Positions 23,457 to 34,963 of a stretch of 64,000 bases of DNA are shown here, one piece after another. The stretch's first letter is position 1; each line of letters starts with the position of its first letter. The position numbers and the translations under genes were made by a program. Origin of the DNA: Winslowiella iniecta (GTDB taxonomy: Bacteria; Pseudomonadota; Gammaproteobacteria; Enterobacterales; Enterobacteriaceae); the NCBI RefSeq assembly GCF_001267535.1, contig NZ_JRXE01000001.1, forward strand, positions 64,568 to 128,567, given 5' to 3'. Below the pieces are notes generated by a model. The model worked only from the letters and a program-made list of their open reading frames with translations, did no database searches and was not told where the DNA came from.

Positions 23457-23936
23457 TTAGTGCAACATTGACTGGCGGGTAATGGTGGTGGTGCGCTCGT
23501 CATCCTCACCGACCATCAGTAAATTGTTGGCAAACGCTTCGAGGATCACCATCGAAATTTGCTCTTCGCTCTGTTTCATAAAGTGCGAAAACTGGCCAAA
23601 CGTCAGACCGGCAGTAATGGTCATTGACTGACAGACGATCAGCTTCGGCAAATTATCATCCTGAATATCGAGGAAGGCTTTTACCGTCAGCGAACTGGCA
23701 TTAATCTGCGATAAATCGCCTACCAGCGGAATTAGCGCGGTTGGCTTCACTTCTGCCAGCGCAGAAAACAGAATAACGTCATCGACCAGGTCGAGTTTCG
23801 CATCGAAAACGCCGTCAAAGTTTTGCATATGCGGCAGGTGAAGCGCCTGGCAGGCATCGCATTCAAACCAGGTGATACTTTGCTGATCCAGCCAACGTCG
23901 TAACACGTCAATATCTGGAACGACGAGTGAATCCAT
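23457..23936 (-). CDS. ybjN: YbjN/AmyR regulator-like protein
   Basis: The 159-residue cytosolic protein (E. coli YbjN 158) starts MDSLVVPDIDVLRRWLDQQS and carries CDACQALHLPHMQNFDGVFD and MSMTITAGLTFGQFSHF-type family features. The fold resembles type III chaperones (family knowledge). In Erwinia amylovora the orthologue AmyR represses amylovoran exopolysaccharide production and virulence; in E. coli YbjN affects motility and stress. It stands alone with its own terminator, divergent from nothing and downstream of the rimK remnant. Confidence 0.92.
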   Translation of the reverse strand: MDSLVVPDIDVLRRWLDQQSITWFECDACQALHLPHMQNFDGVFDAKLDLVDDVILFSALAEVKPTALIPLVGDLSQINASSLTVKAFLDIQDDNLPKLIVCQSMTITAGLTFGQFSHFMKQSEEQISMVILEAFANNLLMVGEDDERTTTITRQSMLH

Positions 23937-24023: not shown

Positions 24024-24663
24024 TCAACCGCCGGTTTTCAGACAGAAACCAGGGTGAGCCTGTTGCTCAATCCATTGAATCATCAGGCTGGCAATGTCTT
24101 TACCGGTGATATTTTCTACCCCTTCGAGACCGGGCGAAGCATTGACTTCCATCACCAGCGGCCCACGGGTGGCGCGCAAAATATCCACCCCCGCCACATC
24201 CAGCCCCAGCGTGCTGACCGCCTTTACCGCGATTTCACGCTCCCGCCCGGTAATCTCCACCGGACGCGCCGTGCCGCCACGATGCAAATTGGAACGAAAG
24301 TCGCCCTCTTTCGCCTGGCGCTCAATGGCCCCCACCACCTGGTCACCAATCACCAGACAGCGGATATCGCAACCTTGCGCTTCTTTAATATATTCCTGCA
24401 CCAGAATATGGGCGTTGAGTCCGCGAAAAGCATCAATCACGCTTTCCGCTGCCTGACGGGTTTCCGCCAGCACCACCCCAATACCCTGCGTACCTTCCAC
24501 CAGCTTAACCACCAGCGGTGCGCCACCGACCATCTCGATTAAATCATGGGTATCATCGGGGGAGTGGGCAATGCCGGTCACCGGCAGATCACGCCTGCGC
24601 CGCTTCAAGCAGGCGTTTGCAGGAGTAGAGAGAACCATCGCGGGATAAAATAGCAATTTTCAC
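24024..24663 (-). pseudogene. rimK: rimK, broken by an out-of-frame internal deletion
   Basis: The GTG at 24663 starts a normal RimK N-terminus ([20 protein letters not shown]), but after about 24 codons the frame hits TGA. Sequence resumes one frame over at [20 protein letters not shown], which in E. coli is residue 113. The rest, 188 codons of ATP-grasp domain through CLKTGG, is intact. Total length is 640 nt against 903 nt for E. coli, so about 263 nt (residues about 25-112) are missing. RimK adds glutamates to the C-terminus of ribosomal protein S6. A fragment with an ATG at 24656 can be read but lacks the N-terminal subdomain and is unlikely to work. Confidence 0.85.
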
Positions 24664-24685: not shown

Positions 24686-25408
24686 TTAGCGCGTTGCCCA
24701 TCCCTGCTTGTGCAGGTAATCAAGGATAAACGGGCGGCTCTCTTTAATAATGGTACGCTGGATATGTGCGCTCCAGGTATCGCTGCGTTGATGGCTGTCA
24801 CGCTGCTGATAATAGTCCAGCAGTTGCTGGTCATACTCCTCCAGCAGTGCAGCATCCATCGGCTGGTAACTGTTTTCATGCACCAGCATGTTTGCCGGCA
24901 TACGCGGTTTGACATCCGGCTGCTGCGCCGGCCAGCCAAGGCACATGCCAAACAGTGGTAGTACATGCTGTGGCAACTTCAGCAGCTGGCCGACGCTGTC
25001 GATATTATTGCGAATTCCGCCAATATACACGCCGCCCATCCCTAATGACTCCGCCGCCACCATGGCGTTTTGCGCCATCAGTGCGGTATCCACACAGCCC
25101 AGCAACAGCTGCTCTGCCAGCCCCAGCTGTGCATCCGGGCAAATTTGCAGATGACGATTAAAGTCGCCGCAGAACACCCAAAACTCCGCCGCCTGCGCCA
25201 CATACTGTTGACCGCCGCTTAGCTCAACCAGCCGGGTGCGTAATTCGCGGTCGGTAATACGGATAATAGATGAACACTGTAAAAAACTTGAGGTCGAGGC
25301 CGACTGCGCGGCGGCAATAATCGCCTCGCGCTGCGCGTCAGTCATCGGCTGTTCGCTGAAAGCACGAATCGAGCGATGCGAACGTAATAAATCAATGGTC
25401 GGCGTCAT
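24686..25408 (-). CDS. nfsA: Oxygen-insensitive NADPH nitroreductase NfsA
   Basis: The 240-residue flavoprotein starts MTPTIDLLRSHRSIRAFSEQ; an 11-codon in-frame extension to 25441 is not conserved. The FMN-binding blocks HRSIRAF, SSFLQCSSIIRITD, GGVYIGGIRNN and KESRPFILDYLHKQGWATR are present. It reduces nitroaromatics and quinones by two-electron steps using NADPH. It overlaps the end of ybjC by 17 bp, and the rimK start lies 23 bp downstream, preserving the ybjC-nfsA-rimK operon of E. coli, which is under SoxS/MarA control there. Confidence 0.95.
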   Translation of the reverse strand: MTPTIDLLRSHRSIRAFSEQPMTDAQREAIIAAAQSASTSSFLQCSSIIRITDRELRTRLVELSGGQQYVAQAAEFWVFCGDFNRHLQICPDAQLGLAEQLLLGCVDTALMAQNAMVAAESLGMGGVYIGGIRNNIDSVGQLLKLPQHVLPLFGMCLGWPAQQPDVKPRMPANMLVHENSYQPMDAALLEEYDQQLLDYYQQRDSHQRSDTWSAHIQRTIIKESRPFILDYLHKQGWATR

Positions 25409-33733: not shown

Positions 33734-34846
33734 TTACTTCAGGCCGACTTTCAGTAATTTGCCATCGCTTTCATCCGTCAGCACGTAGAGGAAACCGTCA
33801 GGCCCGACGCGCACATCACGAATACGTTCGTGGCGATCTTCCAGCAGACGTTCCTGCTCAATCACTTTTTCGCCATTAATTGTCAGACGAATCAGGCTTT
33901 GCTGTTTCAGCGCGCCAATAAACAGCGAATTTTTCCACATCGGGAATTTTGCGCTGTTATAAAACGCCATGCCGCTGATAGCTGGCGACACTTTCCACCA
34001 GAAGAGCGGCTGTTCCGTCCCTTCTACCTCACCACCTTTGGATTCCGGAACTTTTTCGCCGCTATAGTCAACGCCCCAGGTCGCCAGCGGCCAGCCGTAG
34101 TTTTTGCCCTTCTCAATAATATTCACTTCATCGCCGCCGCGCGCACCGTGTTCGCTTTCCCATATCTGCTGGGTCCACGGATTAAATGCCACGCCCTGCG
34201 GATTGCGCAACCCATAGGCCCAGATTTCCGCACGCGCATTTTTACGGTCGACAAACGGGTTATCTTGCGGAATCTCGCCGTCGGCGGTCAGCCGCACCAT
34301 TTTACCCTATAGCTTACTCAAATCCTGCGCGGTGGCGCTGTGGAAATTATCGCCGAACACAATGTACAGGTAGCCATCGCGATCAAATGCCATACGGGTG
34401 CCGAGATTAGCGCCGCTGGAGAGCTGAGGCTGCTGGCGCAGCACCACCTTAAAATCACGCAACTGACGGTTATCTTCGCTCAGTACCCCATAACCGACTG
34501 CCGCACCGGCACCGCCATTTACGCCAGCTTCAGTAAAGCTCAGCCAGACGCGACGGCTTTTCTCAAAGTCGGGTGCCAGCACCACATCCAGTAAACCGCC
34601 CTGGCGGTGCGCCCACACCTTCGGCACGCCAGCAATCGGCTCTGATAACCCGCTCTGCGGATTCCATAAGCGCAACTGACCGGAGCGCTCGGTGATTAAA
34701 ATATCCGCTTTATCTGGCAAAAAGGCCACTGCCCATGGGTGATCCAGCTTATCCTGCAGCTGTTGTACCGTAACATCGGCCGCCATTAGCGAACCGGAAA
34801 CCAGTAATGAAGTACTCACAATCAGTGTCGACAGCAGGCGTGGCAT
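33734..34846 (-). pseudogene. yliI: yliI (aldose sugar dehydrogenase), interrupted by an amber codon
   Basis: A single frame of 370 codons (E. coli YliI 371) codes for a PQQ-dependent soluble aldose dehydrogenase with a Sec signal (MPRLLSTLIVSTSLLVSGSL, cleavage after MAA). Codon 180 is TAG (34307-34309). Both flanks match the family without a frame change: TAQDLSKL before and GKMVRLTADGEIPQDNPFVD after. E. coli has Gln here (DKLQGK), so CAG to TAG is the likely change. The C-terminal half keeps GLRNPQGVAFNP, WESEHGARGGDEVN and GPDGFLYVLTDESDG. The product would be truncated at 179 residues and lack half of the beta-propeller. Confidence 0.85.
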
Positions 34847-34963
34847 AGGCTCCTCCGGGTAACCATCCGATAGTGAAGATCACGCGACCTTGCGCGCAAT
34901 TTCAACGACTTTGGTAATAACCGTAGCCTGAAGGAGCCTGTACGGAATGATTTTTACAAAAAC

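Follow-up and report, generated by a model that had tools for sequence, protein, structure and literature searches.

A probable recent rimK pseudogene in Winslowiella iniecta, one of several apparent rimK losses in its GTDB genus

Genomic layout of the rimK locus

The sequence analysed here, referred to as the window, was a 64-kb stretch of the Winslowiella iniecta genome (64,000 nt of contig NZ_JRXE01000001.1), and its minus strand carried the block ybjC, nfsA, rimK, ybjN, potF and further pot genes. The rimK span, 24024–24663 on the minus strand, measured 640 nt compared to 903 nt in the sister genome G034, the nearest genome compared, which carried a complete 300-codon rimK. The features of the locus were as follows.

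24686–25408, minus strand: nfsA, intact upstream neighbour, 240 aa, NF008033 matched end to end
24592–24663, minus strand: rimK 5' remnant, 24 codons in frame 0 with the GTG start at 24661–24663, start position as in intact genes
24591/24592, minus strand: deletion junction, 263 nt absent relative to sister G034, placed by the single gap in the pairwise alignment
24589–24591, minus strand: TGA stop arising at the junction and closing the 5' reading frame, read directly from the sequence
24024–24591, minus strand: rimK 3' remnant, codons 113–300 plus stop, in a frame differing from that of the start, stop-free inside
24024–24638, minus strand: 204-aa ORF opened by ATG, first codons out of frame, then RimK residues 113–300; from the ORF list, with NF007764 and PF08443 matches
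23457–23936, minus strand: ybjN, intact downstream neighbour, 159 aa, PF10722

The first 72 nt of the window rimK were those of the sister, with the first mismatch at nt 73. The 3' side picked up at the final base of codon 112, and its 188 C-terminal codons remained open down to the natural TGA at 24024–24026, with 92% of amino acids identical to those of the sister across residues 106–300. Pairwise alignment to G034 revealed one 263-nt gap at about 24591 and none other across 24024–24663. When a full-length RimK ORF of about 300 codons was sought from the start, the window gene gave only 24 codons followed by TGA. A search for a single lesion found the G034 copy intact and the window remnant with this one gap and no further gap or stop. 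The comparison thus confirmed what the first-pass annotation had proposed from the sequence, namely that 24 N-terminal and 188 C-terminal codons are kept in different frames and that a 263-nt deletion removed residues 25–112 or thereabouts; the deletion is out of frame since 263 cannot be divided by three. Its description of the neighbours as intact also held, as DUF1418 (at the ybjC position) and the YbjN family PF10722 matched open frames on either side of rimK and NF008033 covered the whole of nfsA. The deletion brought codon 24 up against codon 112/113 in the wrong frame, and translation from the normal start halts after 24 residues. The window rimK is almost certainly dead, a genuine pseudogene that probably arose recently.

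An assembly or sequencing error hiding an intact rimK in the real strain appears improbable. The genome is a draft of 92 contigs and the observation rests on one assembly of one strain; however, the absent sequence forms a single clean block well within a contig of 259 kb, away from the contig ends, with no long flanking repeat able to mislead an assembler. Nor was there a cluster of frame errors nearby, as four ORFs were flagged among the 34 sister ORFs matched in the window: rimK, a GSDH gene interrupted by a genuine in-frame TAG, and another two resembling start-site or spurious-frame effects.

A second probable pseudogene could be observed in the window, a glucose/sorbosone dehydrogenase gene at 33734–34940 on the minus strand with an in-frame TAG at 34307–34309. 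The dehydrogenase ORF at 33734–34300 matched the C-terminal half of PF07995 (150–332), and in the sister G034 the frame runs open for 405 aa.

Search for a second rimK copy

The first-pass annotation had asked for a comparison with rimK in sister strains and had counted a second rimK in the genome as evidence against its reading. Among the genomes compared, one per species, the sister G034 carries a full 300-codon rimK. When the assembly that contains the window was searched with the Pfam RimK model, two places were hit, the window rimK and a 350-aa frame on contig C14. The latter was rejected as a second rimK because it passes both glutathione synthase NCBIfam equivalog cut-offs. A protein search of the window genome, which is listed as 100% complete with 0.04% contamination, did not find rimK outside the window.

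Domain architecture and family scores

Pfam assessment of the sister RimK revealed PF18030 (RimK_N, pre-ATP-grasp) at residues 1–94 and PF08443 (ATP-grasp) at residues 97–286. The Pfam profile search of the 204-aa remnant ORF for PF18030 gave no match, and the same ORF kept PF08443 over profile positions 10–188 of 188 with 233.6 bits. Against NF007764, the NCBIfam RimK model, it scored 364.3 bits with a cut-off of 331, matching profile positions 107–300 only. Because the remnant exceeds this cut-off, the loss may escape score-based annotation and a pipeline may call the ORF RimK; a family score past its cut-off should not be taken as an intact rimK. With the pre-ATP-grasp domain gone, a protein initiated within the remnant would not be expected to function as a ligase. 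Even a frameshift rejoining both rimK parts leaves residues 25–112 or so absent.

Age and constraint of the remnant

Substitutions in the 188-codon remnant were compared using one genome per species. Since the split from G034, the window branch accumulated 13 synonymous and 3 nonsynonymous changes and the sister branch 16 synonymous and 5 nonsynonymous changes over the same codons, with a further 27 synonymous and 3 nonsynonymous changes unpolarised. The proportions in nfsA, ybjN, potF, potG and grxA were similar to those in the remnant. The neutrality test applied the ratio of the sister to the portion of the branch under constraint and assumed that neutral evolution brings 2.5 nonsynonymous changes for each synonymous one; with 20% of the window branch neutral P was 0.04, and with 10% it was 0.14. 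As the pattern is a constrained one and neutrality over about 20% or more of the branch fits poorly, the deletion probably happened recently, or constraint still acts on the remnant. A remnant with no second lesion and with substitutions as in a constrained gene would fit a recent deletion.

The alternative of a remnant still at work as a truncated protein, in which the ATP-grasp part (residues 113–300) is made from an internal start, was considered very improbable. The 188 codons that stay open, the low nonsynonymous count on the window branch, the ATG at 24638 that opens the frame and the PF08443 score are all in its favour. However, PF18030 is lost entirely, the first codons of the ATG ORF are out of frame, and a recent deletion accounts for the same substitution counts. 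Furthermore, the available text on Pseudomonas RimK structures places N-terminal loops in the dimer contact (PMC10092738).

Origin of the deletion

The first-pass annotation had suggested that GCGCAGGCG at the junction was a short repeat through which the deletion occurred, and this suggestion was not upheld: GCGCAGGCG is the left flank and is present likewise in the sister G034. The search for a direct repeat at both breakpoints yielded a longest common word of 5 nt, a length attained at 41% of control positions. Local alignment of the breakpoints scored 5.0 against a control mean of 5.15, and ungapped 24-mer comparison around them found nothing with at least 15 matches. The copies of the pentamer GCAGG, common to both breakpoints, lie 261 nt apart by a hand count on the flanks, so that exchange or simple slippage there would keep the frame. 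Repeat-mediated deletion was therefore rejected, the words at the breakpoints being no longer than elsewhere in the gene, and the event may be read as one deletion without a notable repeat. An origin of the deletion through recombination of foreign or sister DNA into the junction is scarcely credible: identity to G034 was 99% over 149 nt in the 5' part and 88% in the 3' part, but in 100-nt bins it also reached 99% at 23800 and 25300, which makes the 24600 value ordinary scatter and a recombination tract needless.

Distribution of rimK across the genus

A total of 37 genomes of the GTDB genus, a group associated with plants and insects and including Winslowiella arboricola and Erwinia species, were compared. 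The rimK gene was full-length in 25, split in two (the window genome and G003) and undetected in 10, in which only weak matches to other ATP-grasp proteins were found. All 25 full-length genes, that of G034 included, were complete 300-codon ORFs from start to stop; 19 of them passed the start check when KIAIL was demanded, and all 25 passed a looser check. nfsA was present in 37/37 genus genomes and ybjN in all 40 regions (37 genus and 3 outgroups). The spacing between nfsA and ybjN in the 10 genomes without rimK was 122–282 nt, except in G016. In all 10, blastn matched the sequence that immediately precedes ybjN where rimK is intact, which indicates that the losses spared the region upstream of ybjN. 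The second split gene, in Erwinia aphidicola (G003), had lost 4 nt in a GC run and its near relative G004 was intact; with 10% contamination listed for G003, this lesion may be a sequencing error or slippage.

Two further features of the neighbourhood were observed. The nfsA–ybjN gap in G016 (L217) measured 1138 nt compared to 122–282 nt in the remaining nine that lack rimK. In G031 and G035 (L230, L236), potF, potG, potH and potI were not found at more than 50% identity in the 17-kb stretch around ybjN.

A tree constructed from eight neighbouring genes (40 rows, with seven branches left open) called for six changes between the intact and lost states; bootstrap trees gave 5–6, and the well-supported branches alone forced four. 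The label was clustered beyond shuffles (shuffle mean 10.4; 1/500 as low), as expected when whole clades share a loss; one four-genome clade (G002, G015, G018 and G032) is what we take to be the fire-blight group. The tree of rimK itself, in which 10 of 27 branches were unresolved, otherwise agreed on the main groups and placed the window gene beside that of G034, so vertical descent with loss fits, rather than transfers. Taken with the structure of the locus, we are confident in the reading that a single out-of-frame 263-nt deletion killed the window rimK and that this is one of about six separate losses in the GTDB genus.

rimK beyond the genus

Among 80 named nfsA loci, a full rimK was found at 68, none at eight and part of the gene at four. 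Two of the partial genes were cut by contig ends and two carried frame breaks, one in Pantoea brenneri LMG 5343 and one in E. aphidicola (the same genome as G003), so loss occurs elsewhere too. The Pantoea brenneri LMG 5343 gene (L063 3745–4643) lies in two frames split at residue 147/148. Similarly, in another genus, rimK at G062:C1:567643-568471 lies in two frames with a break around residues 133–136.

A family survey revealed a rimK match in 131 of 246 genomes, and many genomes of at most 2 Mb were among the 20 listed of the 115 without a match. Five small genomes of the same family (G049, G088, G091, G150 and G249; 0.8–1.2 Mb) keep rimK with 62–69% identity, whereas larger free-living relatives lost theirs. 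Four Salinicola records (L070, L073, L105 and L112) carried an NfsA 72–79% identical to that of the window, with rimK not beside it. Since this identity is about as close as that of enterobacterial NfsA, transfer of nfsA is possible in Salinicola.

Targets of RimK

The C-terminal tail GDSEE of ribosomal protein S6 was identical in 37/37 genus genomes, whatever the state of rimK. YfiA is a second reported RimK target in E. coli, according to the text available from PMC5392934. Decay of the target tails after rimK loss was sought in the S6 and YfiA ends of the 37 genomes and none was seen. A C-terminal EE of YfiA was present in 9/10 genomes without rimK, 2/2 with a split gene and 15/25 with an intact one; the trend, if any, is opposite to decay after loss.

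In E. coli rimK mutants, besides the lost S6 glutamylation, increased aminoglycoside resistance is the sole effect named in the available part of the same source (PMC5392934). RimK alters the ribosome, and in Pseudomonas it reshapes the proteome, as the accessible text of PMC4741518 describes. Judging from the sequence, the window strain can fairly be expected to lack S6 polyglutamylation, as the first-pass annotation had also supposed.

Meaning of the repeated losses

Across these losses the flanking genes and the S6 tail stay. From the repeated loss of rimK with its neighbours and the S6 tail kept, we infer the cause of the losses: the gene would be dispensable, or sometimes disfavoured, in the group. 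A stronger version, in which selection acted against rimK time and again (some six times among 37 species, the fire-blight lineage being one instance) with GDSEE kept for a reason independent of RimK, is tentative and in our judgement rather unlikely. If it were true, the window would show the most recent of these losses, shortly after it took place. A genus in which RimK comes and goes under a constant S6 tail also offers a natural set for probing the purpose of the modification.

Comparison with known systems

The E. coli RimK (PDB 4iwx and 5zct; NF007764) belongs to the same family and its gene has the same position between nfsA and ybjN; the sister G034 protein aligns over residues 1–300. 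The window rimK differs from intact enterobacterial rimK in the out-of-frame absence of residues 25–112 or so. Enterobacterales account for a strong share of the genomes that have rimK alone, according to the available text of a 2025 study (PMC11957791). A RimK-family gene is likewise listed as disrupted in part of the group in Francisella tularensis type B; this is a distant organism, and the gene product, called a "rimK-related protein" in the accessible portion of that report, is likened here by description only (PMC2682660).

The closest precedent dates from 2011, when E. amylovora and E. tasmaniensis were described as being without rimK, with nfsA directly upstream of ybjN (PMC3181261, available portion). 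Their locus is the same as that of the window, and other enterobacteria are given there with rimK between nfsA and ybjN; in those two species rimK is gone, whereas the window gene has one lesion only. In the text available, the absence of rimK is given as gene context, with no loss count for the genus (PMC3181261). The first-pass annotation is silent on the several rimK losses in the genus; absence of the gene in two of the species is already in print. Titles and abstracts of the literature on rimK in Erwinia and Enterobacteriaceae yielded neither the window deletion nor a loss count for the genus. That this lineage can dispense with rimK was thus already known in broad terms, and the present analysis adds the window lesion and the loss count. 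The recurrence of the loss across the genus is more interesting than this one instance, and it is still gene loss of a familiar kind.
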